From Arthrobacter sp. Leaf69 (lineage in GTDB: Bacteria > Actinomycetota > Actinomycetes > Actinomycetales > Micrococcaceae): a stretch of 64,000 nt of DNA. The position numbers and the translations under genes were made by a program. This document shows, one piece after another, positions 9,199-24,101 of the stretch. The stretch's first letter is position 1. Each line of letters opens with the position of its first letter. Under the pieces are notes generated by a model that was given only the letters and a program-made list of their open reading frames with translations, had not been told where the DNA came from and ran no database searches. The stretch lies in contig NZ_LMLR01000012.1 in assembly GCF_001422645.1 (NCBI RefSeq), forward strand, positions 286,451 to 350,450, written 5' to 3'.

Positions 9199-9234
9199 CG
9201 CCCCGGCCACAGCCCCCGCGTGACAGGTGCAGAA

Positions 9235-9255
9235 TACAAGTGTGACAAGCTTGTA
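9235..9255. promoter_or_regulatory. Inverted repeat before the tyrosine phosphatase gene
   Basis: TACAAG-N9-CTTGTA, overlapping the inner palindrome ACAAGCTTGT. It lies 38 bp before the phosphatase start, so it could be an operator. No assigned regulator is adjacent. Confidence 0.35.
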
Positions 9256-9292
9256 ATGTTCACGGTCCGGAAACTAGCCAAGGGGAAACCGC

Positions 9293-9910
9293 ATGATTCA
9301 TGATTGCACTATGACATCACCGCCGAGGACCCCACCGCCGAGGACCTCACCGCCGGACCAGTACCGGATCATCGCGGTCTGCACCGGCAACATCTGCCGG
9401 TCGCCGATGGCTGAACTGATGCTGGCGGAGGCAATGGCCGCCGCGGGCCTGGCCGGCGCCGTCGTGGATTCAGCCGGAACCACGGCTTACGAGGTGGGCC
9501 GGCCGATTGACCCGCGGGCCGCCCGCAAGCTCACCGCCCACAGCATCCCCTCGGACCAGCATGTGGCGCGCGAATGGCGGACGGATTGGTTCCACAGCCG
9601 CGACCTCATCCTCGCCCTGGACGTGGACCACTTCGGCTGGCTGCAGCAGGCGGCGCCGGACCGCGAGTCCCTGGCCAAGATCAGGATGTTGCGCAGCTTC
9701 GATCCCGCCGTCGCGGGCAAGGACCCCCTCGACCAGGGCATCGAAGACCCCTGGTACGGCGGCCACGCGGACTTCGACGTCACCTGGAACCTGATCCACG
9801 CGGCACTTCCCGGGATCGTGGCGCACGTCCAGGCCGAGCTCGCCGTGCTCCGGCGACCGGGCGGCAGTGATCAACCCAATGCAGGGCAGCCGGTACGCTC
9901 TATTTCATGA
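9293..9910 (+). CDS. Low-molecular-weight protein-tyrosine phosphatase
   Basis: 205 aa, ATG after AAGGGGAAACCGC. The catalytic P-loop C-x5-R is CTGNICRSPMAE near residue 33, and the general acid Asp is in EDPWYGG near 150. This is longer than the usual 155-165 aa because of a Pro-rich head and a C-terminal tail. The family dephosphorylates tyrosine on proteins or, in actinobacteria, can act in cell-envelope control. Its stop overlaps the next ATG (ATGA), so it may be coupled to the kinase-PabB gene, which also has its own -10 box. Confidence 0.92.
   Translation: MIHDCTMTSPPRTPPPRTSPPDQYRIIAVCTGNICRSPMAELMLAEAMAAAGLAGAVVDSAGTTAYEVGRPIDPRAARKLTAHSIPSDQHVAREWRTDWFHSRDLILALDVDHFGWLQQAAPDRESLAKIRMLRSFDPAVAGKDPLDQGIEDPWYGGHADFDVTWNLIHAALPGIVAHVQAELAVLRRPGGSDQPNAGQPVRSIS
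9894..9899 (+). promoter_or_regulatory. Leaderless -10 box of the kinase-pabB gene
   Basis: TACGCT ends 7 nt before the ATG at 9907, inside the end of the phosphatase gene. It would give an internal leaderless transcript. Confidence 0.4.
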
Positions 9911-11955
9911 GTCCTGCACCCGTCATCATCGCCATCGACGGACGATCCGGCGCAGGCAAGACCACCCTGGCGATCGAACTGGCGGCACGGCTCCGCGAGC
10001 ACCACAAGGTGTCCCTCTTTCACCTCGAGGACATCTACCCCGGCTGGAACGGGCTCGCGGCCGGCGTCGAACGCTACGCCTCGACGGTCCTGGCCCCGCT
10101 GCACCGCGGCGAGCCCGCCGAATGGGTCAGCTGGGACTGGAACGCGCATTACGACGGCGAGACCCGCACCACCCGGCCCGCCGAGATCGTCCTGGTGGAA
10201 GGCGTGGGTGCGGCCGCTGCGGCAGCCCGTCCCTACCTGTCCGCGGTCATCTGGGCCGATTCGCCCGAACACGACCGGCGCAGCAGGGCCCTGGCCCGGG
10301 ACGGCGACAGCTACGCACCGTACTGGGATGAGTGGGCCGCCCAGGAAGAGGAGTGGCTGGCCGTGGACGACGTTCCGGCCCAGGCCGATGTCCGCGTGCT
10401 CAACCTGGCCGACGGCGCCGCGCCGGCGGAAGTGCTCCAGGCCCTCCAGTACCTGCCGGCGCTGACCACGGTGATGCTCCCGGAACTCGCCGCCCGCCGC
10501 GGCCTGGAGCTCCGCGCCGAACGGATCACAGCCGCGCCGGACCCTGCCCGGCTGTTCGAGTCCCTCTACGGCCGCTCAGCCAACGCCGTCTGGCTCGACT
10601 CGTCCCTGCCGCCGGACGAAGGCGCCGCGGCGGAACGGAGCCGGTTCAGCATCCTGGCCGACGACGGCGGCCCGTTCGGCCAGTCGGTCCGGCACACTGC
10701 GGGCAGCACCCAGGTGACGGTCGGCAACGCCGCTGTCACGACGGAGGAGCCGTTCTTCCGGTGGCTCGACGGCGTCTGGGGCGGCCGCGCCGTCCGCGGC
10801 CCCGAGGGGTACCCCTGCGAGTTCACCCTGGGCTGGCTCGGCTACCTCGGCTACGAACTCAAACGCGAGACCGGCGGCAGCGACGTCACGGCCGAGTCCC
10901 CCGATGCCTGCCTGCTGTTCGCCGGGCGCGCCGTGGTGCTGGACCATGTGGAGCAGGCGGTCTGGCTGCTGGCGCTGGACACCCCCGACGCCGGGGACTG
11001 GCTCGGGGCCGCCCGGACCGCCGTCACCGGGGCATGCGGCGGCCTCGAACCGTCCGCCCCGCGCGCGGGCGCTGGCACTGGCACTGGCACTGCCCCGGCC
11101 TTCACCGCACGGGACTCGGAGGTCGCCTACAAGTCCAAAATCACTGAGGCCCAGTACCAGATCGCCGAAGGCAACACCTACGAGGTCTGCCTGACCACCG
11201 CCCTGACAGCAGAACTTCCGGCTTCCGCCCTGGACCCCCGGCAGGCCTACCTGGCGCTGCGCCGGAGGAATCCGGCCCCGTTCGCCAGCTATCTGCGCTT
11301 CGGGGACCTCACGGTGGCGAGCACCTCGCCCGAGCGGTTCCTGCGGATCGCGGCCGACGGCCGGATGCGCGCCGAGCCGATCAAGGGCACCCGGCACCGG
11401 GACGCGGACCCGGCGCGGGACGCGCTGCTGCGGCAGGAACTCGAATCCTCCCCGAAGGACCGGGCCGAGAACATCATGATCGTTGACCTGCTGCGCAATG
11501 ACCTCAGCCATTTCGCGGTGCCCGGCACGGTGTCGGTCAGCCGGCTCTGCGCGATCGAAAGTTACGCCACGGTCCACCAGATGGTGAGCACCATCGATGC
11601 CAGGCTCAGGCCCGGGATGCCGCGGGCCGAGGCCGTCGCGGCGTGCTTCCCCGCCGGCTCCATGACCGGCGCCCCCAAGGTCAGCACCATGGCCATCCTG
11701 GACCGGCTGGAGGGCGCGCCGCGGGGGGTCTACTCCGGCGCGATCGGCTATTTTTCGCTCAACGGCGCCACCGACCTGGCCGTGGCGATCCGCACCCTGG
11801 TGCTCGCGGAGCGGCCCGGCGGTGGCACCGGGCTCAGCCTCGGTGTGGGCGGGGCGATTACGGCCGATTCCTCGCCGCAGGACGAGTACGAGGAAATCCG
11901 GACCAAGGCCTTCGGGGTTCTCTCGGCGCTCGGCGCGGAGTTCCCGCCCGGCTGA
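9907..11955 (+). CDS. pabB: Uridine-kinase-like domain fused to aminodeoxychorismate synthase component I
   Basis: 682 aa, two domains. Residues 1-185 form a P-loop kinase-like domain with GRSGAGKTT at 11-19 and the Asp/Glu-rich LEDIYPGWNG, as in uridine kinases. From about 190 on it is PabB: EPIKGTRHR with Lys493 (the PIKGT motif that separates PabB from TrpE's PIAGT), NIMIVDLLRNDL and FPAGSMTGAPK. PabB makes 4-amino-4-deoxychorismate from chorismate for folate, normally with a PabA amidotransferase; none is seen here. A (CTGGCA)n microsatellite at 11066-11092 encodes a GTGTG linker. pabC lies 1.6 kb downstream. Confidence 0.9.
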   Translation: MSPAPVIIAIDGRSGAGKTTLAIELAARLREHHKVSLFHLEDIYPGWNGLAAGVERYASTVLAPLHRGEPAEWVSWDWNAHYDGETRTTRPAEIVLVEGVGAAAAAARPYLSAVIWADSPEHDRRSRALARDGDSYAPYWDEWAAQEEEWLAVDDVPAQADVRVLNLADGAAPAEVLQALQYLPALTTVMLPELAARRGLELRAERITAAPDPARLFESLYGRSANAVWLDSSLPPDEGAAAERSRFSILADDGGPFGQSVRHTAGSTQVTVGNAAVTTEEPFFRWLDGVWGGRAVRGPEGYPCEFTLGWLGYLGYELKRETGGSDVTAESPDACLLFAGRAVVLDHVEQAVWLLALDTPDAGDWLGAARTAVTGACGGLEPSAPRAGAGTGTGTAPAFTARDSEVAYKSKITEAQYQIAEGNTYEVCLTTALTAELPASALDPRQAYLALRRRNPAPFASYLRFGDLTVASTSPERFLRIAADGRMRAEPIKGTRHRDADPARDALLRQELESSPKDRAENIMIVDLLRNDLSHFAVPGTVSVSRLCAIESYATVHQMVSTIDARLRPGMPRAEAVAACFPAGSMTGAPKVSTMAILDRLEGAPRGVYSGAIGYFSLNGATDLAVAIRTLVLAERPGGGTGLSLGVGGAITADSSPQDEYEEIRTKAFGVLSALGAEFPPG

Positions 11956-11995
11956 CGGCAACCCCGTCACCCGGCTGACGCCGGTGCAGCTCGGG

Positions 11996-13471
11996 CTACT
12001 GCAGGGTGGCTGTCAGCCGGGCCACGTTGTCCACGTATTTGACACCCATGGGCCGTTTCATCCAGTCCTCGAGGGTCAGTTCCCGCGAAATGCCCCGGTA
12101 GGTGTCCTCCACGGCGCTGATCCGGCGCACGATGTCCTCGCCCAGGAGCATCACTGAGACCTCAAGGTTCAGCGAGAAGGAGCGCATGTCCATGTTGCTG
12201 GACCCCAGCACCGCCACGTCGTTATCGATGGTGAAGTGCTTGGCGTGCAGCACGAAAGGGGCCTTGTACAGGTAGATCCGCACGCCGGCTTCCAGGAGCG
12301 CCTCGTAGTACGACTGCTGGGCGTGGTGGACCAGGAACTGGTCACCTTTTTCCGAGACGAAGAGTTCGACGTCGACGCCGCGCTGCGCCGCCGTCGTCAC
12401 CGCGTACAGCAGCGAATCATCCGGGACGAAGTAGGGGCTGCAGATCGAGATCTTGTGCTGCGCCGAGTAGATCAGCGTGTTGAAAAGACGCAGGTTGTTT
12501 TCCGTGATGAAGCCGGGGCCGCTGGGCACCACCTGGGCCGTGATGTTGCCGGCGTGCAGTTCGGGACGATGCGCCAGCTGATCCTCGAGCGACTCGTCGG
12601 TCTCGCTGAGCCAGTCCGTGGCGAACACGACGTTGAGCGTGGTGACGATCGGCCCCCGCAAGCAGGCCATCAGCTCGACCCATTCGCGGCCCACCTTGCG
12701 GTGCCGCGGGTTGTTGTACGAGGGTTCGATCAGGTTCTGCGAACCGGTGAACGCCACCTCGCCGTCGATCACCATGATCTTGCGGTGGTTGCGCAGGTCC
12801 GGCCGGCGCCACTGCCCGTGCACGGGCCGCAGCGGCAGCATGGGACGCCAGCGAATCTTGCCGGCCTTGAGCCGGGCGATCAGCTTGCTGTAGCCCTGGA
12901 TGCGCAGGGTCCCCAGGTGGTCGAACAGGAGACGGACCTCGACGCCGCGTTCTGCGGCCTCTTCCATCGCCGTCAGCAGATCGTCCGTGACGTGGTCCGA
13001 GCTCAGGATGTAGAACTCGGCGTTGACGAAGGACTCGGCCTTACGGACTGCCGCCGCCATCGCCTTGATCGAGTCCGGGTACCCGGGGAGGAGCTCCACG
13101 TGGTTGCCGTCCACCATCGGCAGCGAGCCAAGGGTCTTGTTCAGTTCCGCCGCGGAGGCCACCCATTCCGGGCCGTCGTAGCGGCTTTCCAACATGGCCA
13201 GGTCGGCCGTGCCGGCGCGCACGCGGGTGTTCACTGCATCCTGCTGCGCCCGGCGCTTGCGGGAGAGGCGGAAATTGCCGAAGAGCAGGAACAGGACCAG
13301 GCCGAGGGCCGGGACGAAGAAGATGATCAGCAGCCAGGCCATGGCCGTGGTGGGGCGTCGGTTTCCCGGGATGATGCCGAGGGCCAGCACCCGGATGGCG
13401 AGGTCCACCACGGTCAGGATCATGATCACCCAGGACGGCAGCGTTTCCGCCAGCGAAAATGGCCACAGCAC
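11996..13471 (-). CDS. cls: Cardiolipin synthase (phospholipase D family)
   Basis: 491 aa. The GTG at 13469-13471 is chosen because GAGGGG sits 7 nt upstream; an in-frame TTG at 13528 has no such site. Two N-terminal TM helices are followed by two HKD catalytic motifs, HRKIMVIDGEVAFTGSQN near residue 228 and HAKHFTIDNDVAVLGSSN near 409. The enzyme condenses phosphatidylglycerol-type lipids to cardiolipin at the membrane. It lies opposite to pabB and pabC, separating them, and is probably monocistronic. Confidence 0.93.
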   Translation of the reverse strand: MLWPFSLAETLPSWVIMILTVVDLAIRVLALGIIPGNRRPTTAMAWLLIIFFVPALGLVLFLLFGNFRLSRKRRAQQDAVNTRVRAGTADLAMLESRYDGPEWVASAAELNKTLGSLPMVDGNHVELLPGYPDSIKAMAAAVRKAESFVNAEFYILSSDHVTDDLLTAMEEAAERGVEVRLLFDHLGTLRIQGYSKLIARLKAGKIRWRPMLPLRPVHGQWRRPDLRNHRKIMVIDGEVAFTGSQNLIEPSYNNPRHRKVGREWVELMACLRGPIVTTLNVVFATDWLSETDESLEDQLAHRPELHAGNITAQVVPSGPGFITENNLRLFNTLIYSAQHKISICSPYFVPDDSLLYAVTTAAQRGVDVELFVSEKGDQFLVHHAQQSYYEALLEAGVRIYLYKAPFVLHAKHFTIDNDVAVLGSSNMDMRSFSLNLEVSVMLLGEDIVRRISAVEDTYRGISRELTLEDWMKRPMGVKYVDNVARLTATLQ

Positions 13472-13552
13472 AGGCGAACCCCTCAAGCTCCAGACCCGCG
13501 GAACAGTTCCGGAACGGGCAACCGTCAAATCCTAACCCGTTGCCCGCCGCAC

Positions 13553-13558
13553 TAAGCT
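13553..13558 (+). promoter_or_regulatory. Leaderless -10 box of pabC
   Basis: TAAGCT ends 6 nt before the ATG at 13565, with no ribosome site between. Confidence 0.5.
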
Positions 13559-13564
13559 GAAGCC

Positions 13565-14521
13565 ATGACTTCTCCTGCCGCCGCTCCCTCCCCCGCCACG
13601 GTGCTGGTCTTCCTCGACCCCGCGTTCGAGGACGGCCGGCTGGCCGATGCGTCCAAGCCGCAGCTCATGGCGACGGACCAGGGCGCCACCCGCGGCGATG
13701 GTGTTTTCGAGTCGCTGCTGGCGGTGGGCGGGCACCCCCGCAAGCTCCAGGCACACCTGAACCGCCTGGCCGGGTCCGCCCGGCTCCTGGAGCTGGACAT
13801 CCCGGCGGAGGAGCCCTGGCGCCGCGCCATCACAACGGCCATCCGCGAATACCGCAGCCAGCACGTGCCGGGGTCCGTTGCTGACGACGAACTCGTGGTG
13901 AAGCTGCTGGTGACCCGCGGCGTCGAAGGATCCGCCATGCCCACCTGCTGGGTCCAGGCGTCCGCACCCGGCCCCGCCGGGCGTCGCCAGCGCGAGACCG
14001 GCGTCGACGTCATCCTGCTGGACCGCGGCTACGACAGCGAAGTGGGCGAGCGGGCGCCGTGGCTGCTCCTGGGTGCCAAGACCCTTTCCTATGCGGTCAA
14101 TATGGCGGCCCTGCGGTACGCGCATGCCCAGGGTGCGGACGATGTCATCTTCACGTCCGCGGACGGCCGGGTCCTGGAGGGTCCGACGTCGACCGTGCTG
14201 CTCGCGCACCTGGAGACCGTCGACGACGGCGCCGGCGGGGTCCGCACCATCCGGCGTCTCATCACCCCCCAGCTCGACAGCGGGATCCTGCCCGGCACCT
14301 CGCAGGGCGCCCTGTTCACCGCGGCCAAGGCCGCCGGCTGGGAGCTGGGCTACGGCCCGCTGGAACCCCACGACCTCTACGACGCCGACGCCGTCTGGCT
14401 GATCTCCAGCATCCGGCTGCTGGCGCCCGTCAACCACATTGACGGCAAGGAAATCGGCACCCCGGAGCTGCGCCGGCAGCTCACGGCAGAGCTCAACGCG
14501 CTCTACGCCACGATCCAGTAG
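13565..14521 (+). CDS. pabC: Aminodeoxychorismate lyase / class IV aminotransferase
   Basis: 318 aa fold-type IV PLP enzyme. The N-terminal DQGATRGDGVFESLL is typical, the PLP lysine is in LGAKTLSYAVNM near residue 177, and SADGRVLEGPTSTV matches the cofactor-binding loop. Together with the nearby PabB fusion, the likely role is release of pyruvate from aminodeoxychorismate to give p-aminobenzoate. A branched-chain or D-amino-acid aminotransferase is the alternative within this fold. The start is probably leaderless. Confidence 0.87.
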   Translation: MTSPAAAPSPATVLVFLDPAFEDGRLADASKPQLMATDQGATRGDGVFESLLAVGGHPRKLQAHLNRLAGSARLLELDIPAEEPWRRAITTAIREYRSQHVPGSVADDELVVKLLVTRGVEGSAMPTCWVQASAPGPAGRRQRETGVDVILLDRGYDSEVGERAPWLLLGAKTLSYAVNMAALRYAHAQGADDVIFTSADGRVLEGPTSTVLLAHLETVDDGAGGVRTIRRLITPQLDSGILPGTSQGALFTAAKAAGWELGYGPLEPHDLYDADAVWLISSIRLLAPVNHIDGKEIGTPELRRQLTAELNALYATIQ

Positions 14522-14536
14522 CCCAGCGGCATGCAG

Positions 14537-14593
14537 CGCGGGGTCAGCTGCGGCCCACCCGGGCGCCCCGGATGGGCGCGTGGTGACCCCGCG
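14537..14593. terminator. Bidirectional stem-loop between pabC and lipoprotein gene
   Basis: CGCGGGGTCA (14537-14546) pairs perfectly with TGACCCCGCG (14584-14593). A nested GCCCA/TGGGC stem sits in the loop. It lies between two converging genes. There is no T-run, as is common in high-GC actinobacteria. Confidence 0.6.
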
Positions 14594-14602
14594 TTCCGCG
14601 TG

Positions 14603-15355
14603 TCAGCCCTTGGCGAGGGCTTCGTCGACGAGACGGGCCAAGTCGACTGACGCATCCGCGGTGAGCCCGATCCCCGTTACGACGGCCGTGGCCGACAGCG
14701 TTCCCTTCAATCCCATGACCATGACTGTCGTCACGGCCTGCCCGGAGGGCAGCGTCTGAGTGGAGAGGGAGCTGAACGAGTTGTCCCCGGTTGTTTTCAC
14801 GTCCAGGACTTTCGTCGTGTTCGTGATTTTCTGGCCCTGGAACTCCAGCGTGAAGTTTGCACACTTCGTGCTGTTCGCCTCGGAGGCTTCGACATTGCTG
14901 CTTAGGAGCTCCGGGTCCGTGACCGCCACGAGGGTGAGCACCGTGATGGTTTCCTCCTTGGCCGATTCGGCGCCGCCGGCGGCGTAGGTGCTGCCCTCGG
15001 GAATCTGCGCGCTGCTGTCCGCAAGGGCGCCACATTCCGCCGGAGTGATCTTGGCGGCGTCCATCATCTCGCCGGCCGATTCGATGCCCTGGTCCAGTTC
15101 GCTTGCCGGAACGGCAGTCAGCGGCCGGCCTGCGGCGTCTTTCAGCCCGGCGATGATCGCGGCCAGCTCCTTTGCCGCGTACGCCTTCGGTGTGGGAGTC
15201 GGGGTGGGCGTCGGCGTGGCGGACGGCGATGCCGCCAGCGATTCCCCCGAAGCAGGCGAGGACGAGCCCCCGGCGGCTGAGGTTGTGCCGCAGCCGGCGA
15301 GCGCCAGCGTTGTCGCGAGAAGGAGCGCGGCCGGTGTGATGCTTCTTAGATTCAT
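14603..15355 (-). CDS. Putative lipoprotein, unknown function
   Basis: 250 aa. The type II signal peptide has lipobox LALAGC, so Cys about 22 would be lipidated. A Ser/Ala-rich stretch and a (TP)n linker follow, then a soluble domain of about 190 residues with no recognised family; it has a possible beta-rich second half (TITVLTLVAVTDPELL). Anchored on the outer face of the membrane. It lies 125 bp downstream of the exopolysaccharide-type operon on the same strand and could be transcribed with it. Confidence 0.8.
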   Translation of the reverse strand: MNLRSITPAALLLATTLALAGCGTTSAAGGSSSPASGESLAASPSATPTPTPTPTPKAYAAKELAAIIAGLKDAAGRPLTAVPASELDQGIESAGEMMDAAKITPAECGALADSSAQIPEGSTYAAGGAESAKEETITVLTLVAVTDPELLSSNVEASEANSTKCANFTLEFQGQKITNTTKVLDVKTTGDNSFSSLSTQTLPSGQAVTTVMVMGLKGTLSATAVVTGIGLTADASVDLARLVDEALAKG

Positions 15356-15480
15356 GGAGGTCCCCAGTTCCTGTGTGATGTGGTCATGCACCGCTCCCAG
15401 ACGCGATAGCCGAGAGCCTACGACATCAGACGCGGGTAGGGAAAGACAAACGCATGGCAACGACACGCCCGTCGGGCCGG

Positions 15481-16566
15481 CTAGGCCCACGCCGTCCGGA
15501 GCGCCTCCCAAGCGTCGTCGTCGAGCATGCTGGACGGCGTGACGGCGACGGCGGTCGCCCCGCCCGAGATGGACGCCGCCAGCGCGGCTGCCAGGTCCGC
15601 CGCGGAGATGCTGCCACCCGTCGCCCACATCCCCACCGAAATGACGAACTTGGGAGAGCGCTTCGCCATGGCCCGGGCCAGTTCGGCGGAGTATTCGGGC
15701 TCCTTGCCGTTGAGCCCGAAGTAGTTCCACACCACCAGCCGGTCCGCGGCCGAGGCCAGGAGGCCGTAGTCGTGACCGCTCTCCGTGCGGTCGCCCGCCG
15801 GATCGTCCCACGGAGCCCTGACGTCCATGTCCAGGGTGGCCCCGTTTTGGTGTGCGGCCGCCGCCGCCTTCGCCACCACGGAGGCCAGCGCCTCGGAACG
15901 CCACGTCGCGATGCTTGGATGCCCGACGTCGATGTCCCCGCTCGCCTGCCTCGGCCAGTCGGTGGCGCCGCTGGCCAGCATGTAGGAATCGCGGTCATCG
16001 CCCCCGTAGGTGTTGTTGTCGAACATCAGTTCGGTCAGGGCCACCGCGGCCGGCTGGTAGCGTTTGGTCACCTCGGCCACGAACTCCACCAGCCGCTCCC
16101 CGGCCGGACCGGTGGTGAGGGCGGTAACGCTGGCGAAGTCCGTGGACCGGGTGCCGTCGAAGTTGATGCCCGCCAGGCCGGGATTCGTGCTGATCCAGCC
16201 CGGGATCAGCAGGTCGACGGTTAAGGTGACCTTCCGCTTCCGGCCGTCGCTGCCGGTTCCGAGGGCCTTGATCGCCTCGGCGACGTGGTCCCGGCCCGGG
16301 ACGGCTTCCAATTCCGGGTAGGCGGCCCAGGGGAAAGCCGTCCAGTCCAGCCGTCCGACGCTGATGGTCACGCTGTTGGCGTTGACCTCGTCGAGCCTCT
16401 TGGCCAGGGCCGGCAGGGTGTGGGCGGCATCGACGACGGTTTCGTAACCGACGCCGACGGTCCGTTCCTCGGCTGGCGCCGCGACCGCACTCGACCCCTC
16501 CTGCGGCCCGGAACACGAGGTCACGGCGAGGGCCAGCACGGACAGGAGACCCACAGCCCGTCTCAA
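15481..16566 (-). CDS. Lipoprotein with putative TIM-barrel glycosidase-like domain
   Basis: 361 aa. A TTG start overlaps the stop of the glycosyltransferase (TTGA) and has GGAAG 7 nt upstream; GTG at 16554 is possible. Signal peptide GLLSVLALAVTSC gives a lipobox Cys. The rest reads as alternating strands and helices of a TIM barrel: VGVGYETVV, VTISVGRLDW, VTLTVDLLIP, AVALTELMFDNN, ATLDMDVRAPW, RLVVWNYFGL, KFVISVGMW, ATAVAVTPS. Acidic residues at strand ends (E/D in TELMFD and DMDVR) are candidate catalytic groups. By position it recalls the C-terminal hydrolase domain of PgaB. Family assignment is inference. Confidence 0.65.
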   Translation of the reverse strand: MRRAVGLLSVLALAVTSCSGPQEGSSAVAAPAEERTVGVGYETVVDAAHTLPALAKRLDEVNANSVTISVGRLDWTAFPWAAYPELEAVPGRDHVAEAIKALGTGSDGRKRKVTLTVDLLIPGWISTNPGLAGINFDGTRSTDFASVTALTTGPAGERLVEFVAEVTKRYQPAAVALTELMFDNNTYGGDDRDSYMLASGATDWPRQASGDIDVGHPSIATWRSEALASVVAKAAAAAHQNGATLDMDVRAPWDDPAGDRTESGHDYGLLASAADRLVVWNYFGLNGKEPEYSAELARAMAKRSPKFVISVGMWATGGSISAADLAAALAASISGGATAVAVTPSSMLDDDAWEALRTAWA

Positions 16567-17858
16567 GCCCGCGCTTCCGCGCGTGGCGCCGGGACAGTCA
16601 CGCTGACGATTCCGGTCCGGGTGAGCTTGTTCCAGCGGGCTTCCTTCCTGCGCAGCTCCTGGTTGAGGGCGGCGACCATGGTCAGGCTGGTGAACACGGA
16701 ATACAACGGGATCAGCGGCAGCACCCAGATGTGCCGCAGGTCTTTCCATGCCCGGTTCATGCCCAGGGCGCACACCGTCAGAACGAGCGTCACGATGATG
16801 CCGAGCCAGCCCAGGAACGCCCAGGCGTCGCCGCCGAGCGGGCTGTAGCCCAGAGCGAGGAGGAACGCCAGGTCAAGGAGGACCAGGATCTGGACCACTG
16901 GCAGGACCACCATGGTGATGGCGTTGAACAACAGGTAGGCGCCGAACCTGCCGTGCCGGAGATTGCCGATCATGCCCTTGTGGACGGCCATGGTCTGCAG
17001 CAGGCCGCGGGCCCACCGGACCCGCTGCCGCCACAGGGCCCGGATGGTCGACGGGGATTCGGCGTAGACCAGCGCCCGCGGCGTGAAGACCACGCGGTAG
17101 CCCGCCTTGTGTACCCGCCAGGTCAGCTCCAGATCCTCGCCCACGGTGTCTTCGCGGAACGGCCCGATTTCCTCCACAACCTTGCGCGGGAAAGCGCCAA
17201 TGTTGCCGGAGACGATGGGCAGGCATCCGATCACGGTCAGTGCGCGCCGGACCATGCCGGTGCCGACGTGGCTGATGAAGGCCAGCATCCGGGTCTGGGC
17301 CCGGTTCAGGTTCACCGGCCGGTCATCGCCGCAGACGGCCCCGGTACGCCCGTCCTCGAAGCCCTGGAGCATCTTCTCGACGGTGTACCGGGAAAAGATG
17401 CCGTCCGCGTCAACGAACATCAGGACATCGCCGGTCGCGTTGCGGATTCCCAGATTCAGGGCGGCTCCCTTGCCTGCGTTGGCCTGTGTCAGGACCCTGA
17501 TCCGCGCATCCCCGGCCGCGAGACCTGCCATCAACTCTGCCGTGTTGTCGGTTGAGCCGTCGTCCACCAGGATCACCTCGTACCGGTCATACCGGGTGAG
17601 CTGGATAGATCGGACGCAGTTCTCGATGACGGTTGCCTCGTTGTAGGCGGGCACGATGATTGACACGCTGGGCCATTCATCGTGCAGTGTGGGGGCTTCC
17701 CGCCGCCGCCGCATGGCGGCACGGACTTCAAACCAGACGGACAGCGGCAGCACCAGGAGTTTGACGAGCCCGAAGACCAGGATGGGCAGGCCCAGCGCGA
17801 GGAGCAGGAGCTGCGCCCCGGGGAGGGCTGCCGCGAAGGATGATTCAAACCAGGACAT
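16563..17858 (-). CDS. Processive glycosyltransferase family 2 (PgaC/IcaA-like)
   Basis: 431 aa. An N-terminal TM helix (about 15-40), then the GT-A catalytic domain with ILVDDGSTDNT (near 94), DxD in FVDADG (near 150), GED (near 240) and QRVRW (near 283), then three or four TM helices. The D, DxD, ED and QxxRW set marks processive enzymes such as poly-N-acetylglucosamine, hyaluronan or cellulose synthases. It probably polymerises a UDP-sugar and extrudes the chain. It overlaps the ATP-grasp gene by 14 bp and the lipoprotein gene by 4 bp. Confidence 0.92.
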   Translation of the reverse strand: MSWFESSFAAALPGAQLLLLALGLPILVFGLVKLLVLPLSVWFEVRAAMRRRREAPTLHDEWPSVSIIVPAYNEATVIENCVRSIQLTRYDRYEVILVDDGSTDNTAELMAGLAAGDARIRVLTQANAGKGAALNLGIRNATGDVLMFVDADGIFSRYTVEKMLQGFEDGRTGAVCGDDRPVNLNRAQTRMLAFISHVGTGMVRRALTVIGCLPIVSGNIGAFPRKVVEEIGPFREDTVGEDLELTWRVHKAGYRVVFTPRALVYAESPSTIRALWRQRVRWARGLLQTMAVHKGMIGNLRHGRFGAYLLFNAITMVVLPVVQILVLLDLAFLLALGYSPLGGDAWAFLGWLGIIVTLVLTVCALGMNRAWKDLRHIWVLPLIPLYSVFTSLTMVAALNQELRRKEARWNKLTRTGIVSVTVPAPRAEARA

Positions 17859-18789
17859 TGGCGTACGCTCCTGTGCTTTGCCGGAAGGATGCCGGGTTGA
17901 AGGCTGGAAGGGCGAAGGACGCCAGAACGGCGTCGAGCAGTTCCGGGGCCCGTGCGCTGTTCGCGCCGAACCGGGCGTTCACCTCCAGGACCACGGGGGT
18001 CCCGTCCGCGCGGCGGCGGACATCCACGTCCACCGGGCCGGTGAGGCCCAGTGCGCGGACGGCGGCAAGCGCCACATTGCCGACGTCGATCGCTTCGCCC
18101 GCGTCGGTCCGGCGGGTGGTGACGGCGTTCCCGATGTTGCCCTGCGCCAACTCCGTTTTCTCCACCACGACGACGAACGGTGCGGCGACGTTGTGCGCGG
18201 GCGTGCCGAACACCATGGGACCGTACTCGACGCCCGGGATGAACTCCTGGACGATCTGCCCGGCCGGGAGACGGTGCCAGTCCACCTCCGTGCTGCCGTC
18301 GATGACCGTCACGCCGCGCCCGCCTCGCGAGACGCGGGGCTTGACGACGATGGGTCCCCCCAGCGCGGCCATGGCCGCGTTTGCGTCGGCATAGTCGCCG
18401 GGCACCCCGAAGCGCGGCGCCGGGACTCCGGCCGAGTGCAGCTGCCAGGCGGTGAAGAGCTTGTCGTCGGCGAGCGCCACCGGCCCGGGATCCCCAATAA
18501 TCACGCGGACCTCCGCCCCGAACGCCGCCCGGTACGCCGCAAGCTGCGGGAGTTCCTCGCTGACGGTGGGGATGATCACGTTGATGCCCTCCTGCACCAC
18601 AATCCTGCGAAGCGCGGAAACCAGGTCCGGGTCTGAGGCGGGCGGGACGGGAACCACCGTGAGGCCCGCCCCGGCGGGAAGCTCGCGGATGTCGGTGCCG
18701 AGGACGGGAATGCCGCGGTCTTTCAGTTGGGCGGCGACGGCACGGCCCGCGGGCCCTCCCGCGCCGGTGACCAGGACGCGGGGCTTCAC
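17845..18789 (-). CDS. ATP-grasp enzyme (carbamoyl-phosphate-synthase-like)
   Basis: 314 aa, GTG start inside the GTGA overlap with the PIG-L stop. A Rossmann-like N-terminal domain has VLVTGAGGPAGRAVA. ATP-grasp follows, with GGPIVVKPRVSRGGRG (phosphate loop) near 150 and VVLEVNARFGANS near 280 for Mg binding. ATP-grasp enzymes couple ATP to joining a carboxylate to an amine or other nucleophile. In this operon it may decorate a sugar amine exposed by the deacetylase. That role is inference; no substrate can be named. Confidence 0.87.
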   Translation of the reverse strand: MKPRVLVTGAGGPAGRAVAAQLKDRGIPVLGTDIRELPAGAGLTVVPVPPASDPDLVSALRRIVVQEGINVIIPTVSEELPQLAAYRAAFGAEVRVIIGDPGPVALADDKLFTAWQLHSAGVPAPRFGVPGDYADANAAMAALGGPIVVKPRVSRGGRGVTVIDGSTEVDWHRLPAGQIVQEFIPGVEYGPMVFGTPAHNVAAPFVVVVEKTELAQGNIGNAVTTRRTDAGEAIDVGNVALAAVRALGLTGPVDVDVRRRADGTPVVLEVNARFGANSARAPELLDAVLASFALPAFNPASFRQSTGAYANVLV

Positions 18790-19691
18790 AGCTTCTCCAG
18801 TTCCGTGTTCAGGAGGCGGATGGGCTCATAGGCTTCTGCGACCCTGCGCCGGGCCTGCCCGCCGCGGAAGGAAGCAATGCCGCGGACACGCTCGGGGGTC
18901 ATATACGGCTTGGTGAGCTGGTCGCTGTGCATCTTGACCGCCTGGACCTTGGCATCCATGTAGTCGTCAATATCGACGAATACGCTCGGATTGAATTCGC
19001 GCGTTGCCGAGGGGCTCTCGTAGCAGAGGATGGAGTGGTGCTGGCGAGCTGCCCGCAGCGTGGCCTGGTGGACGGCCTGGTGGTCCTGGTGCTGGTCATG
19101 GTTGGAGTGCGTCAGGATGATGTCGGGGTTGTAGCGGGCGATCGCGGCCTCGATGACACCGACCATCTCCTGGCTGTGCCGGTTGAGTTCCGTGTCGGTG
19201 AAATTGTGGTGGGCCATCCCGGTGAGGCCCATGAACGCCGCGCCGCGCTGCGCATCCAGCGAACGTTCCAGGGCGTCCCCGCCGCGCTTGCCGTCGCTCA
19301 TGACGAGCCCCTGGACCTCGTGTCCGGAGTCCACGAATTTGGCCAGGGTCCCCCCGCAGGCCAGTTCAAGGTCATCCGGATGGGCGCCGATTGCCAGGAC
19401 ACGGCGGGGCTGGCGGGCCGGAACTCCCCCGGTGCGCAGGGCCGTCATGACCACACCCAGTGCCGCGAGGCCGCCGACGGTTGCGGTGAAGTTCGCGGTC
19501 CGCCAGAACGGCGTTGCCTCGAGGAGGAAGCATGCCAGATTCGTCACGAGCAGTGTGCCGCCCACACCGAGGGAAACCTGTCGCAGCAACTCGGGCCGGC
19601 GCAGCCGGCGATGGAACCAGGAGCGGCCGACGGCGGCAGCAACCAAGAATGTGATCAGGAAAACAATCATCAAGACATATATCGAGACCAT
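18786..19691 (-). CDS. Membrane-anchored PIG-L/LmbE-family N-deacetylase
   Basis: 301 aa from the ATG at 19689-19691 with GAAGGAA upstream. Three N-terminal TM segments (about 2-22, 37-57, 66-84) are followed by Arg-rich cytoplasmic-type loops; by positive-inside, the catalytic domain faces the cytosol. The zinc motif is AHPDDLELACGG near 103 and HQDHQAVH near 200. PIG-L enzymes deacetylate GlcNAc-containing lipids or metabolites. It is the first gene of a four-gene overlapping operon with an ATP-grasp enzyme, GT2 and lipoprotein. Confidence 0.9.
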   Translation of the reverse strand: MVSIYVLMIVFLITFLVAAAVGRSWFHRRLRRPELLRQVSLGVGGTLLVTNLACFLLEATPFWRTANFTATVGGLAALGVVMTALRTGGVPARQPRRVLAIGAHPDDLELACGGTLAKFVDSGHEVQGLVMSDGKRGGDALERSLDAQRGAAFMGLTGMAHHNFTDTELNRHSQEMVGVIEAAIARYNPDIILTHSNHDQHQDHQAVHQATLRAARQHHSILCYESPSATREFNPSVFVDIDDYMDAKVQAVKMHSDQLTKPYMTPERVRGIASFRGGQARRRVAEAYEPIRLLNTELEKL

Positions 19692-20016
19692 GAAATTCAA
19701 TTCCTTCGTAGAAGTACCGGCAGCCCTCAGCGCTGGACCGGGAATAGAGCGACAGAACGTCAGATAAGGCCGCGGGAAAGAGCCGGGCCTGGGTGCGGAA
19801 GGTGGACCATTCGTGGAGCAAGTCCAGGGCATCTCCGGCAGGACGCAGGACGGCAAACAGCGCAGCCGCAAATCGGCGGCACTTGCACGTCTGAGTGTTG
19901 ACCAGCGCTTATGTTGCACAGCGCGATTACCCCCCCGGCATGTTGCGTGGCATGTGAGACTTTCTGGAGACCTTGGACTTGCTCTTCAGTAAAGTCGAGT
20001 CGCCTATCAGTAGGCC

Positions 20017-20033
20017 CGAGTAGGCGTTACTCG
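20017..20033. repeat. Inverted repeat CGAGTA-N5-TACTCG
   Basis: Perfect 6-bp arms with a 5-bp gap, resembling a dimer-binding operator. TACTCG recurs at 20072-20077 and 20133-20138. Confidence 0.6.
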
Positions 20034-20064
20034 AAACTTTCTGGTTCTGAATTCAATACGTGGG

Positions 20065-20099
20065 CGGGTAGTACTCGCATTGATTAATTCGACTACCCG
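20065..20099. repeat. Inverted repeat CGGGTAGT / ACTACCCG
   Basis: Eight-bp perfect arms (20065-20072 and 20092-20099) around a 19-nt A/T-rich loop. It could form a stem in a leader RNA or act as a terminator or operator. It has no T-run. Confidence 0.55.
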
Positions 20100-20202
20100 G
20101 AGCGCGCTATTCCTGCCGTAATTCCCTGCGATTACTCGTCGCGGGCTGCTCCGGAGAGATGGATGTGGTTTTCGGCCAGCCAGACAGGATTGAAGGCCTT
20201 GC

Positions 20203-21153
20203 TCACGTAGTTGCTTCCGGCGTCGGGGCTATGGCCACCACCACCGAGCCGTGCGGTGCTGCGAGTGCCACGCGGAGTGCGGCGGCCACCGCGAGTCCGG
20301 AGGACGGGCCCAGGGACAGGCCCTCCGCGTCCAGCAGCCGGTGTGCGGTGGTGTACACCTCGTCGTTGGGGATGCGCAGGAAACGGTCCACCGCGGCGCG
20401 GTCAAAGACCTTGGGCCAGTCGGCTTCGGGCCAGGTGTTCCCCACCCCGTCCACCAGGATCGGTCCCGCATGCCCGCCGCTGTACACCGAGCCGAAGGGA
20501 TCGGCCGCGATGACTTCCACCTGTCCGGCCGATCGTTCCTTGAGGAAGCGGCCGGTGCCGCTGATGGTCCCGCCGGTGCCGACTCCGGCCACGAAGTGCG
20601 TGACCGTGCCGCCGGTCTGCGCCCAGATCTCCGGCGCCGTGGCGTCGTAGTGGGCCTGCGGGTTGGCCGGGTTGTCGAACTGCAGCGGCCGCCACGCACC
20701 GGGCGTCTCCGCGGTAATCCGCGCGGCCACCGACCTCGCGTTTTCCGGCGATCCGGACGGCGCATCCCAGTCCGTCACCACCACGCGGGCGCCGTAGCGG
20801 TGCAGGGCCGCGAGCTTCTCGGCGGAAATCGAGTCGCCCGTCACCACCACCACCGGGTGCCCGGTCAGCGCCCCGATCAGGGCCAGCCCGATTCCGGTGT
20901 TCCCGGAGGTGCTCTCCACGATTGTGGCGCCGGGCTGCAGTGCGCCGCTGCGCTCGGCGGCCCGGATCATACTCAGGGCCGTCCGGTCCTTGATCGACCC
21001 GCCCGGGTTGTCCGATTCGAGTTTGACGTAGACCGCGCTGGCCAGGCCGCCGGCGACGGCCCTCAGCCGCACCAACGGGGTGTTCCCCACCTGGGCCAGG
21101 ACGGCGTCCGCATCATTGGGCAGCAGTTCCGCTACCGTGTGCTTCCCCGTCAT
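20203..21153 (-). CDS. Cysteine synthase family (PLP, O-acetylserine sulfhydrylase-like)
   Basis: 316 aa, ATG with GGGGAGGAGAGACGCC upstream. The PLP lysine is in DNPGGSIKDR near residue 51. STSGNTGIGLA binds the substrate carboxylate, and GVGTGGTISGTGR binds the cofactor phosphate. It replaces the acetyl group of O-acetylserine (or a related beta-substituent) with sulfide or another nucleophile. It overlaps the HAL-like gene by 41 bp, so it is translated from the same mRNA as the LLM monooxygenase and HAL-like protein. A dedicated role in that pathway, rather than housekeeping CysK, is inferred. Confidence 0.88.
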   Translation of the reverse strand: MTGKHTVAELLPNDADAVLAQVGNTPLVRLRAVAGGLASAVYVKLESDNPGGSIKDRTALSMIRAAERSGALQPGATIVESTSGNTGIGLALIGALTGHPVVVVTGDSISAEKLAALHRYGARVVVTDWDAPSGSPENARSVAARITAETPGAWRPLQFDNPANPQAHYDATAPEIWAQTGGTVTHFVAGVGTGGTISGTGRFLKERSAGQVEVIAADPFGSVYSGGHAGPILVDGVGNTWPEADWPKVFDRAAVDRFLRIPNDEVYTTAHRLLDAEGLSLGPSSGLAVAAALRVALAAPHGSVVVAIAPTPEATT

Positions 21154-22762
21154 GGCGTCTCTCCTCCCCGGCAGCTGGTTCCGCGAGCGCCGAACGCAGA
21201 GCGCCGCGCGCCGCGTCCAGCAGTTCCGACGCCGGCAGGCCGCTGTCCGCGCCGTGGGCCAGGACCCTGGCCAGGCGAGCCTGGACCGCACCGGTCCCAG
21301 CCCCGAGCGGACGCGTCGCCGGCTCCACCGCGCCGTCACCCGCGGCGCCGCCGCCCCCCGCACCCGCCCGGGACAGCAGGTAGGCCGCGGTCAGCGCCTC
21401 GATGGTGAAGAGCTTCTCGGCCGCCTCCGCCGAGCGTTCCAGCTGCTGCAGGGCCAACGGCGCCAGGGTGGAATGGTCCTCCACGTCGGCGGACAGGGTG
21501 GGCGCCCCCAGCGTGGCCGGCGCCGCGAGGGTCTTCAGCTCGGCCAGCAGCCCGGCGGCCGAGTACCACAGCAGACCCGGCAGTTGCTCGCGTTCCAGGG
21601 CCGTTCCGTCCCTCGCCGCGGCAAGGTGCTGCTGACGGATCCGGCGCTGCGGCGGATAGAGCTTGGCGATCCGGCGTTCGCTGCTGATGCCGAGGTGGGC
21701 CAGGCCCACCCGGAGGGCCTCAAAAGCCAGGGCCAGCTGCATGGGCTGGAAGTTCCCGCCGGACACCATCCGCCCCGAGGCCAGGTCGGTCAACGGATTG
21801 TCGCCTTGTCCGTTGAGTTCCACTTCGAGGGCTTCCTCGAGCGCGCTGAGCTGCCAGCGGTAGGCGCCATGGGTCTGCGGCGCGGCCCGGAAGGACAGGG
21901 CGTCCTGCACCGAGACGTCACGGCCGTCCTGCTCCAGCCATCCGCCGCGAACCAGCCGGCGGACGTTGCCGGCGGACACGGCCTGGCCGTCGACGGCCTT
22001 GGCCGCCTGCACGGCCGCGGAGAAGGGGCTGAGGTTCCCGCCGCCGTCGTACCGCGCGGTGGCCTCCAGGGAGAGCGCCAGCGCGGTGTCTGCCAGGTCC
22101 GCCAGGCCCAGGAGACGCCCCAGCAGGAGCGCACCCACGCCGATCGAGTAGGAGTTGGCGCTGACGAGCGCCAGGGCCTCCCCCGGCGCCAGGGTCAGCG
22201 GCTCCAGTCCGGCGGCGGCGAGCGCCTGGCCGCCGGGGACGGGCGGCCCGTCCGGAGAGAGAACCCGCCCCTCGCCGATGGCGACGGCGGCGACGGCGGC
22301 GAGCTGGGTCAGGTCCGAGGATCCCACGGAGCCGTCGCGCGGAATGGCGGGAAGCACGCCGCGATTGAGCAGCCGGGCGTAGAAGCGGGCCGTCTCGGGG
22401 CGCACCCCCGAGCCTCCGCGGCTGAAGCCGATCAGCCGGGCGAGGACTGTGGCGCGCGCTTCGGCGGCGTCCAGCATCCCTCCGACGCCGCTGTCGTGGT
22501 AGCGGACCACCTGGACCTGGTAGGCGAGGATCGATTCCTCGGCCACGGCAGTGTCGCGGCCGGACCCCAGCAACGTATTGAGGCCATACACCTTGTGGCC
22601 GGACTCGATGGCCCGCTGGACCACTTCCCGCGAGCGGCCCAGCACTTCGAGGGCCTGTTCGCTCAGGACCACAAGGACCGAAGGGTCCGCGGCAGCCGCT
22701 GCGACCTCCCGGGCGTGCAGCCGGGCCGTGCCGATGAGGAAGGTTGCTGCCGCGGCGTGCAT
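21113..22762 (-). CDS. HAL/PAL-family protein with degenerate MIO motif
   Basis: 549 aa, matching the length of histidine ammonia-lyases. Family landmarks are VYGLNT near residue 60, GSVG near 145, QDALSFR (HAL QDPYSLR), NPLTD, SGGNFQP and VEDHS. The Ala-Ser-Gly triad that forms the MIO electrophile is altered: GSVGASGDL of HAL reads GSVGSSDL, one residue short. The PYS tyrosine is also lost. An intact MIO is therefore unlikely and classical ammonia-lyase activity is doubtful. It sits 4 bp after the LLM monooxygenase and overlaps the cysteine synthase. Function unknown. Confidence 0.85.
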   Translation of the reverse strand: MHAAAATFLIGTARLHAREVAAAAADPSVLVVLSEQALEVLGRSREVVQRAIESGHKVYGLNTLLGSGRDTAVAEESILAYQVQVVRYHDSGVGGMLDAAEARATVLARLIGFSRGGSGVRPETARFYARLLNRGVLPAIPRDGSVGSSDLTQLAAVAAVAIGEGRVLSPDGPPVPGGQALAAAGLEPLTLAPGEALALVSANSYSIGVGALLLGRLLGLADLADTALALSLEATARYDGGGNLSPFSAAVQAAKAVDGQAVSAGNVRRLVRGGWLEQDGRDVSVQDALSFRAAPQTHGAYRWQLSALEEALEVELNGQGDNPLTDLASGRMVSGGNFQPMQLALAFEALRVGLAHLGISSERRIAKLYPPQRRIRQQHLAAARDGTALEREQLPGLLWYSAAGLLAELKTLAAPATLGAPTLSADVEDHSTLAPLALQQLERSAEAAEKLFTIEALTAAYLLSRAGAGGGGAAGDGAVEPATRPLGAGTGAVQARLARVLAHGADSGLPASELLDAARGALRSALAEPAAGEERRHDGEAHGSGTAAQ

Positions 22763-22766
22763 GGCG

Positions 22767-24101
22767 CTAGAAGTCCAGCAGGTTCCGGCGGAACCCGCCG
22801 TCGCCGTAGCCGGTCCGCAACAGCCCGCGGCGGCGCAGCACGGGGGTCAGCCGGTCCAGGACGCCGTGGACGGTCACGGGATCCACGAACCCGGAGAAGA
22901 GGAAGCCGTCGCCGCCCACCTGAGCTCCGGTGTCCTCGAGGTAGTCCGCGATCTCCTCGGCGGTGCCGATGATGCTGTCCCCGGCGCCGCCGCTGCGGGC
23001 CTGGAGGAGCTGGCGCAGTGTGGAGCCCGGCGGCCCGGCCTTGGTGAAGTGGTCGAGGGTGCCCTGGTTGCTGTTGGTGTGGAGTTCCGGCAACGGGGCG
23101 TCCAGGTCGAACTTTTTGAAGTCGATGACGGAGAGATAGGAGATGGAGTTGAGCTGGCTGTCGATGTCCCGCTGTGTGAGTTCCCTGCGCCGGGCCCTCA
23201 GGTCCTCCGCTTCCGCCCGCGTGCCCACCACCGTGGGTTTGAGGACAAACAGCACCTTAACGTCGTCGGGGTTCCGGCCTGCGGCGGCGGCTTCCGCCCG
23301 GATGGAGTTCCGGTACGCCGTCATCCCGTCCGCTCCCCGTGCCAGCGCAATCGCGACGTCGGCGTTGCCCCCGGCGAAGGCCTTGCCCCGCGGGGAGGCG
23401 CCCGCCTGCACCAGCACGGGTTCCTCCGGCAGCGGTGCGGTGTTCAGCGGCCCGCGGACCTTGAAGAACTCGCCGTCGTAGTTGATCGGGTGGACCTTAG
23501 TGTGGTCCGCGAAAACGCCGTCTTCGGTGTCCTCACGGATCGCGTCCGGTTCCCAGCTGCGCCAGAGCCGCCGCACCACGTCCACGAATTCCTCGGCCTT
23601 CTCATAGCGCCGGTCGTGTTCGATTTGCTGGTCAAGGCCGTAGTTCTGCGCGGCGAGGTCGCTGCCGGAGGTCACCACGTTCCAACCCAGCTGCTGGTGG
23701 GAGAAGTGCTGCAGCGTGGCAAGCAGCCGCGCCGCGGTGAACGGCGGGTAGAAGGAGGCGCTGATGGTCGGCACGATGCCCAGATGCCTCGTGGCGCAGA
23801 ACAGGTACGGCACGAGGGCCAGCGGATCGTGTTTCGGCGCGAAGGACGCCTGGGCCAGGGAAACTTCCGCGCTCCCGCCGTAGGTGTCCGGGACGGTGAG
23901 GGAATCCTCGATGATGAACAGGTCCAGCCCGGAGCGTTCAAAGGCCCGCACCGCGTCCTGGTACAGCGCCGGCTTCTTCCAGTCGTAGCCGATCCCGTAA
24001 CCGGGGGTACCCCAGCCCTGCACACCGAAGCCGTGGCCCACGAACCAGCCGAAATGCAGCATGGGGCTGGCTGTAGGGGCATCCGACGCGTTCACGGCCA
24101 C
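22767..24101 (-). CDS. LLM-class flavin-dependent monooxygenase (NtaA/SnaA/DszA-like)
   Basis: 444 aa, GTG start. It is an F420/FMN-dependent bacterial-luciferase-type barrel of the NtaA/SnaA/DszA branch, with HFGWFVGHG at the N-terminus, SSxQ-like SFYPPFTAARLLATLQHFS, GWNVVTSGS and PVLVQAGASPRGKAFA. These two-component enzymes use FMNH2 from a separate reductase to oxidise C-N or C-S bonds; many scavenge sulfur from organosulfur compounds. It is first in an operon with the HAL-like protein and cysteine synthase, divergent from the SAM-IV/metZ operon. Substrate unknown. Confidence 0.88.
   Translation of the reverse strand: MAVNASDAPTASPMLHFGWFVGHGFGVQGWGTPGYGIGYDWKKPALYQDAVRAFERSGLDLFIIEDSLTVPDTYGGSAEVSLAQASFAPKHDPLALVPYLFCATRHLGIVPTISASFYPPFTAARLLATLQHFSHQQLGWNVVTSGSDLAAQNYGLDQQIEHDRRYEKAEEFVDVVRRLWRSWEPDAIREDTEDGVFADHTKVHPINYDGEFFKVRGPLNTAPLPEEPVLVQAGASPRGKAFAGGNADVAIALARGADGMTAYRNSIRAEAAAAGRNPDDVKVLFVLKPTVVGTRAEAEDLRARRRELTQRDIDSQLNSISYLSVIDFKKFDLDAPLPELHTNSNQGTLDHFTKAGPPGSTLRQLLQARSGGAGDSIIGTAEEIADYLEDTGAQVGGDGFLFSGFVDPVTVHGVLDRLTPVLRRRGLLRTGYGDGGFRRNLLDF

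Follow-up and report, generated by a model that had tools for sequence, protein, structure and literature searches.

The window analyzed here, a 64,000-nucleotide stretch from Arthrobacter sp. Leaf69 (NCBI RefSeq assembly GCF_001422645.1, contig NZ_LMLR01000012.1, positions 286,451 to 350,450 of the forward strand), carries a four-gene operon on its minus strand that encodes, in order, a PIG-L family de-N-acetylase, an ATP-grasp ligase, a family 2 glycosyltransferase (GT2), and a lipoprotein modeled as a (beta/alpha)8 barrel. We read the four genes, at a probability of about 0.5, as a self-contained synthase-dependent surface-glycan system with cytosolic deacetylation. The GT2 would most likely polymerize an N-acetylhexosamine (HexNAc)-type sugar and move the polymer through the membrane, while the PIG-L enzyme would work at the cytosolic face, stripping N-acetyl groups off the precursor or the growing chain. 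The ATP-grasp enzyme would most likely join a carboxylic acid, for example an amino acid, onto the freed amine, and the barrel lipoprotein would trim or release the polymer outside. In some relatives the deacetylase itself is a response regulator and lies beside a sensor-kinase gene, so that deacetylation would be switched by phosphorylation. The families, motifs, gene overlaps, co-occurrence, modeled barrel fold, and receiver fusion are observed; what we infer is which sugar is used, what polymer results, what PIG-L deacetylates, that the ATP-grasp enzyme acts on the freed amine, that the barrel hydrolyzes, and that phosphorylation exerts control. A broader proposal is that such operons define an unrecognized, patchily distributed actinobacterial class of surface-glycan systems, in which cytosolic deacetylation and amide linking by the ATP-grasp enzyme before or during polymerization yield an N-aminoacyl-hexosamine polymer and one branch has a phosphorylation-gated deacetylase; we put this forward tentatively, as a possibility that falls short of even odds. 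An earlier note on this DNA had proposed a rewired PgaBC-type exopolysaccharide system, and its interpretation is partly supported by the results below.

The operon and its three enzymes

The genes overlap by 4 bp (PIG-L/ATP-grasp), 14 bp (ATP-grasp/GT2), and 4 bp (GT2/lipoprotein), which confirms the observation that four genes overlapping by 4 to 14 bp form one operon (Table 1). The first three products each scored above their Pfam family cut-offs, with 91.4 bits for the PIG-L protein (PF02585, cut-off 28.2), 52.7 bits for the ATP-grasp protein (PF02655, cut-off 23.2), and 125.5 bits for the GT2 (PF00535, cut-off 23.3), and motifs expected of active enzymes are found in all three.

TABLE 1 Features of the operon and its upstream region, in window positions
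Feature	Positions	Strand	Basis or remark
Lipoprotein with (beta/alpha)8 barrel, 361 amino acids from TTG	15481..16566	-	Lipobox AVTSC, AlphaFold2, fold matches
Asp254 (model numbering), strand 5, second candidate catalytic carboxylate	15823..15825	-	Asp in 24 and Glu in 1 of 25 aligned; putative role
Glu185 (model numbering), end of barrel strand 4, candidate catalytic acid	16030..16032	-	Invariant in 25/25; putative role
GT2 membrane synthase, 431 amino acids, PgaC/IcaA-like, under equivalog cut-off	16563..17858	-	PF00535, NCBIfam
QRVRW (QxxRW) motif of GT2	17013..17027	-	Q278, R279, R281, and W282 invariant in 20/20 aligned, including E. coli PgaC
ATP-grasp ligase, N-terminal Rossmann-like part, 314 amino acids	17845..18789	-	PF02655
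PIG-L family de-N-acetylase, 301 amino acids, N-terminal transmembrane helices, catalytic domain predicted cytosolic	18786..19691	-	PF02585, hydropathy
HPDD motif of PIG-L site, residues 104-107	19371..19382	-	Invariant in 17/17
Upstream intergenic region, presumed promoter site	19692..20202	.	Presumed promoter role

For the GT2, the top NCBIfam model was PgaC/IcaA (TIGR03937), at 204 bits against an equivalog cut-off of 422.3 and with the next model at 111.6; all 20 aligned GT2s, Escherichia coli PgaC among them, match this model. The full processive motif set claimed for the protein was recovered (DDG, DAD, GED, and QRVRW), and a hydropathy scan gave one N-terminal and three C-terminal hydrophobic segments. 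We take the D, DxD, ED, and QxxRW motifs in their customary meaning, and together with the membrane segments they make this a predicted processive synthase.

In the PIG-L protein, the candidate metal-site residues H104, D106, D107, and H204 are invariant in 17/17 aligned homologues. An HQDH motif is also present, and we take the HPDD residues to be metal ligands as in MshB/BshB-type enzymes. Topology was read throughout from a simple hydropathy scan with a transmembrane (TM) cut-off of 1.6. The three TM helices previously claimed for this enzyme were seen in 8/8 aligned, more distant TM-type homologues, but in the window protein only two helices exceeded the cut-off and the third fell below it. 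Basic residues occupy the loop after TM1 in all eight of these homologues and a basic stretch follows TM3 in seven (the exception being L041; L-numbers denote homologous loci examined in other genomes), and from this charge pattern the catalytic part is predicted to be cytosolic.

The ATP-grasp ligase has a lysine/glycine loop (KPRVSRGGRG, K150) and a C-terminal E-x-N (LEVNARFGANS), which are presumably the residues that handle ATP and Mg. Its closest solved chain by profile was 2pn1 (E = 2.2e-17). An ATP-grasp gene of another sugar operon is tabulated as an amino acyl ligase in the excerpted text of PMC4000134.

A second, standalone ATP-grasp paralogue, 56 to 58% identical to that of the window, occurs in L006-L009 at about 10.4 to 11.5 kb; in the three that were aligned (L006, L007, and L009) the E-x-N residues are lost (GVCAT).

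The barrel lipoprotein

The start of the lipoprotein gene is uncertain. We read it as the TTG at 16566-16564, overlapping the GT2 stop by 4 bp, because the L005 and L006 orthologues begin with ATG in the same type of 4-bp overlap; the numbering of the structural model includes six extra residues and counts from 16584. Pfam assigned the window protein to no known family, and PDB sequence searches with the lipoprotein alone and with a 15-row profile returned nothing meaningful. AlphaFold2 modeled eight alternating strands and helices with several low-confidence loops (predicted local distance difference test [pLDDT] 70.2, predicted template-modeling score 0.74). Foldseek matched this model to many glycosidase barrels, with GH42 beta-galactosidases at ranks 1 to 3 and the Bordetella PgaB domain at rank 5. 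A second structural aligner placed the E. coli PgaB C-terminal domain (4p7l) first (Z 23.2, root mean square deviation 3.3, 292 aligned), with Cwp19 (5oq3) at Z 23.1 and GH42 at Z 22.2. The prediction of a glycosidase-like barrel thus withstood the structural search. Its narrower form, a TIM barrel like the hydrolase half of PgaB, held in that the modeled fold resembles the PgaB domain and found it first, but not in that Cwp19 ties with PgaB, GH42 lies near, and the sequence is not that of GH153.

GH153 membership by sequence was rejected, as GHL13 (PF14883) had no match in the lipoprotein's own genome and was unmatched by the 19 members of the lipoprotein family at E ≤ 1. Weak GHL10 matches occurred in 3/19 members (best E = 1e-4) and GHL6 matches in 2/19, with none in the window protein; GHL10 was unmatched at E ≤ 1 in the other 16, as far as the HMMER filters report.

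Conservation is concentrated around the mouth of the modeled barrel. Of the polar residues that are invariant across the 19 lipoproteins, 9/18 fall at the C-terminal strand ends, versus 24/153 of all polar residues (permutation p of about 1e-4, with the strand-end windows set by hand). Five residues (R78, D124, E185, D197, and R229) are invariant in 25/25 aligned lipoproteins, and position 254 is nearly so (Table 1). In the excerpted accounts of PgaB, D474 of Bordetella bronchiseptica, which follows strand 4, is the most probable catalytic residue (PMC5933820) and is equivalent to E. coli D466 (PMC13366581). E185 lies at a strand end that, paired by eye, would match that of the PgaB HDD/D474.

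Co-occurrence of the four genes

Lipoprotein-first searches led to 19 separate loci in which the gene is intact: the window, L005-L011, L024-L029, L039-L042, and L071, which is located on a named Arthrobacter megaplasmid. L013 (genome G086) duplicates L005, lying at an identical position on the contig, and the two were counted as one. PIG-L, ATP-grasp, GT2, and lipoprotein genes stand together in 18 of these 19, so that the survey did not refute the earlier interpretation. L028 has one ATP-grasp gene and two copies of the PIG-L, GT2, and lipoprotein genes. The lipoprotein is rare: it was detected in 10/295 genomes of the family, two of them with only a fragment or broken copy, in 7/396 genomes of the order, and among 396 of the phylum only in its own genome. 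Profile searches scored few candidates per genome (5, or 7 in the family ATP-grasp search), and absences are soft. The gene set recurs at about 35 to 60% identity in different genomic contexts, including in further families of the order, and the arrangement is therefore beyond chance.

Two further loci were set apart, L030 being a broken lipoprotein copy and L031 resting on a 65-residue match at 29%. In L030 the copy, at 7.1 to 7.8 kb, is interrupted by stop codons, and tblastn detected no other cassette gene in its 15-kb locus.

Across nine representative loci, distances between the genes were correlated (r = 0.48 to 0.89, Mantel p of about 0.03 or less); those of the lipoprotein followed the distances of the ATP-grasp gene (r = 0.89), the GT2 (r = 0.82), and PIG-L (r = 0.59). 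Shared ancestry alone could yield such correlations.

An ATP-grasp-first profile search at E ≤ 1e-40 served as a control. The profile drew 16 of its 19 rows from cassette members and the other three from the L006, L007, and L009 paralogues, and the control is therefore not wholly independent. It found 14/295 genomes of the family and 17/396 of the order, 26 of them distinct, in which a GT2 gene adjoined in 21 and a PIG-L gene in 18. All four functions were present in 11/26. Seven (L067, L069, and L088-L092) had PIG-L, ATP-grasp, and GT2 without a barrel in the locus, with the three frames open across the matched stretches in each. Three had an ATP-grasp/GT2 pair only (L064-L066), two the ATP-grasp gene only (L068 and L070), and three a weaker ATP-grasp homologue (35 to 37%) without partners (L093-L095), which we retained as misses. 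Close reading of the barrel-less and pair-only genomes covered the locus; the profile lent no support to a weak match to the lipoprotein in L088 (28%, E = 8e-4). The barrel had been thought part of the core set, and this does not hold: with seven genomes lacking it, the core is PIG-L/ATP-grasp/GT2, to which many lineages, though not all, add the barrel.

Two of the pair-only loci suggest how the cassette erodes. The ATP-grasp proteins of L064 and L065 are 77 to 78% identical to that of the window, and neither locus has PIG-L or the barrel. In these proteins the lysine is replaced by T or R, and T or D stands at the Glu position of E-x-N, and their GT2s have RRVRS at the QxxRW position or are truncated; such joint loss would be expected if the genes serve one pathway. 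In the third pair, L066, different changes are seen (ATP-grasp 60% identical, E and N of E-x-N replaced by G and C, and QxxRW by RRVAR).

A branch with a receiver-fused deacetylase

L040 and L042 have, in place of the TM-type PIG-L, a fusion of a response-regulator receiver to PIG-L, and a PAS-HisKA-HATPase kinase gene adjoins. The same arrangement with ATP-grasp, GT2, and lipoprotein genes was identified in L126-L130, giving seven loci in which a receiver-PIG-L and a kinase gene lie beside other cassette genes. Of these, L040, L042, and L127 were put through Pfam, which confirmed all three domains (receiver, PIG-L, and kinase); the other four rest on tblastn and alignment, the kinase match being partial in L129 and L130. 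None of the seven cassette-linked receiver-PIG-Ls passed the TM cut-off (L129 and L130 came close, at 1.57 versus 1.6). The phospho-acceptor Asp is present in 12/13 aligned receiver-PIG-L proteins; the aligned stretch of the thirteenth, L136, does not extend to that position, and in this protein no receiver was recognized at E ≤ 0.01, PIG-L alone being found.

Receivers are phosphorylated in the cytosol, and the fused PIG-L domain should therefore be cytosolic. These fusions, free of predicted TM helices, support the earlier placement of the catalytic part in the cytosol, and, once the distribution of charges in the TM-type proteins is added, they support a cytosolic site of deacetylation as a prediction for the whole group. 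The receiver and the adjoining sensor kinase suggest that deacetylation may be under signal control.

A search for receiver-PIG-L proteins in two families gave strong matches in 18/101 and 9/24 genomes, five of the latter nine covering the PIG-L part only. Of the 34 places listed, nine had been examined before and 11 were newly examined, mostly chosen strong matches. Five of these 11 (L131-L134 and L136) have a divergent ATP-grasp/GT2 pair beside a receiver-PIG-L or PIG-L, with identities of 31 to 35% for ATP-grasp and 32 to 39% for GT2. In this divergent set, the ATP-grasp of L133 and L136 matches ATPgrasp_Ter, L131-L133 show a kinase match, and L136 has a confirmed PHP-domain gene; in L135 the kinase is the sole partner beside the receiver-PIG-L.

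Relation to known systems

The closest parallels are the PgaABCD and IcaADBC machines for poly-N-acetylglucosamine (PNAG). The window operon shares with them a GT2 whose best model is PgaC/IcaA and which has the same catalytic motifs, as well as the logic of deacetylase, synthase, and hydrolase, with the PgaB hydrolase domain as the first structural match of its barrel. It differs in that the GT2 reaches about half the equivalog cut-off, the barrel is a separate lipoprotein lacking GHL13 sequence similarity, an ATP-grasp enzyme is added, and PgaA is not among the four genes. By sequence, then, a PgaBC-type system in the strict sense is not upheld. The PNAG deacetylase is an extracytoplasmic CE4 domain, while the window enzyme is a PIG-L protein predicted to be cytosolic; Pfam found no CE4 match in any of the four operon proteins, the rest of the genome not being searched for CE4. 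In the excerpted text of PMC7112194, the hydrolase domain is described as exclusive to Gram-negative pga operons.

Among Actinobacteria, the Streptomyces MatAB system resembles the window operon in having a GT2 with PgaC as top match and in making an aggregation polymer (PMC5972031). Synthesis of PNAG by MatAB relies on an extracellular CE4 domain, which MatB joins to a GT2, and the excerpted account mentions no PIG-L, ATP-grasp, or barrel (PMC5972031). Cwp19 matches the fold equally well, and a few lipoproteins match GHL10 weakly, but the window barrel sits in a synthase operon. BshB and diacetylchitobiose deacetylase are solved relatives of the window PIG-L found by profile and share its family; the cassette enzymes, unlike these, bear N-terminal membrane helices or a receiver domain, and the window protein scored 88 bits against the BshB1 model (cut-off 182.5). 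No earlier description of this gene set was found in the open-licence literature, as judged by titles and the openings of abstracts.

If the proposed scheme is true, amine editing inside the cell would change how polymer charge is set, and polymers could carry acyl groups that the PNAG-type machines named here do not add. The signal-linked branch, with a receiver-PIG-L beside a kinase gene, was unexpected; a receiver-fused deacetylase would couple the chemistry of the matrix straight to a sensor kinase, bypassing transcription. Because the operon is compact and comes from soil bacteria, each step is testable.

Weighing the alternatives

Several results weigh against the surface-glycan reading. 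An intact lipoprotein gene is solitary in L024, and seven genomes keep the three-gene core without the barrel. The barrel was modeled from 8 close sequences and reached a pLDDT of 70, and PgaB, Cwp19, and GH42 lie within about 1 Z with GH42 at the top of Foldseek, so that the fold does not single out PgaB; in addition, comparison of the lipoprotein with a profile of five PgaB domains gave a probability of 0.3%, which is not significant. The four-gene set includes no PgaD/IcaD-like gene, although no profile was run for one and it was not searched for elsewhere. The closest solved relatives of the ATP-grasp enzyme differ in function, its AlphaFold model was poor, with a pLDDT of 45.7, so no fold search was based on it, and its distances correlate only modestly with those of PIG-L (r = 0.48). 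In 2/26 genomes the ATP-grasp gene is solitary, and another role is therefore possible. Neighboring genes may decay jointly after a partial deletion without a common pathway, and L066, whose G and C replacements also occur in the standalone L006-L009 paralogue, may descend from that paralogue and not be a decayed cassette, which leaves L064 and L065 to carry the erosion argument.

Solitary ATP-grasp genes would fit a cationic polymer that is never capped, on which the glucosamines made by PIG-L stay free, as they do in partly deacetylated PNAG, while the ATP-grasp enzyme has another task, such as decorating a lipid or preparing a precursor. It would also agree with known PNAG, whose deacetylated units are those recognized for cleavage according to the excerpted text of PMC5933820. 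We nevertheless consider this unlikely, since the ATP-grasp gene lies between PIG-L and GT2 in the examined TM-type core loci (except L028, where it is upstream of both PIG-L/GT2/lipoprotein copies) and adjoins GT2 in receiver-type loci, its catalytic residues are lost in the two loci missing PIG-L and barrel, and the divergent gene set repeats the PIG-L/ATP-grasp/GT2 triad.

A somewhat poorer prospect is a glycolipid, for which the GT2 would add one or a few HexNAc units to a lipid, PIG-L would deacetylate them as in glycosylphosphatidylinositol-anchor synthesis, and the ATP-grasp enzyme would add an amino acid. Small and lipid-linked compounds are known substrates of PIG-L enzymes, the window PIG-L is membrane bound by hydropathy, and HpnI, a GT2 of glycolipid synthesis, matches the window GT2 weakly (35.6 bits). 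This scheme is countered by PgaC/IcaA being the best model for the window GT2 and a match for all those aligned, by the QxxRW motif and C-terminal membrane segments, which suit a processive synthase, and by the seven receiver-type PIG-Ls without a TM helix above the cut-off; an outer barrel hydrolase would, moreover, have no obvious job.

Another reading is that the barrel binds the polymer or helps to release it, or that it cleaves a different glycan, for instance peptidoglycan, and not the operon's product; this seems improbable to us. The near-equal fit to Cwp19, the scattered GHL10 and GHL6 matches, and the existence of barrel-less cores would suit such a role, but the strand ends bear an invariant Glu and a nearly invariant Asp, as those of glycosidases do, the lipoprotein gene follows GT2 in 18/19 lipoprotein-first loci, and its distances track those of GT2 and ATP-grasp. 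Finally, gene order is common to close Arthrobacter relatives (lipoprotein identity of 75 to 91% to those named), so that the seven named loci add little independent weight, but the recurrence of the set at about 35 to 60% identity, in different surroundings and elsewhere in the order, contradicts unrelated neighbors held together by chance or shared ancestry, which we regard as a very remote prospect.

Genomic setting

Recent import was considered and set aside: cassette and flanks differ in G+C by ≤0.032 in 19/19 loci, and no recent import is therefore visible by composition. Within positions 9000-24000 of the window, no Rfam family matched at E ≤ 0.5. Immediately downstream of the operon (14603-15355, minus strand) lies a further predicted lipoprotein gene, whose product had no Pfam match at E ≤ 0.001.

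In L068 and L070, the lone ATP-grasp gene lies between an extracytoplasmic function (ECF) sigma gene and a phosphoenolpyruvate carboxylase-like gene, a place where L025 has a full cassette. A large ECF sigma factor gene is found upstream of the cassette or its remnant in L025, L028, L068, L070, and L088-L090, called by Pfam (Sigma70_r2 and zf-HC2) in L025, L028, L068, and L088 and by sequence start only in L070, L089, and L090. Directly upstream of the three-gene core, L088-L090 carry a gene for a Big_8 surface protein, with Big_8 above the Pfam cut-off in L088 and L089 and just under it in L090, and a collagen-binding domain above cut-off only in L088.

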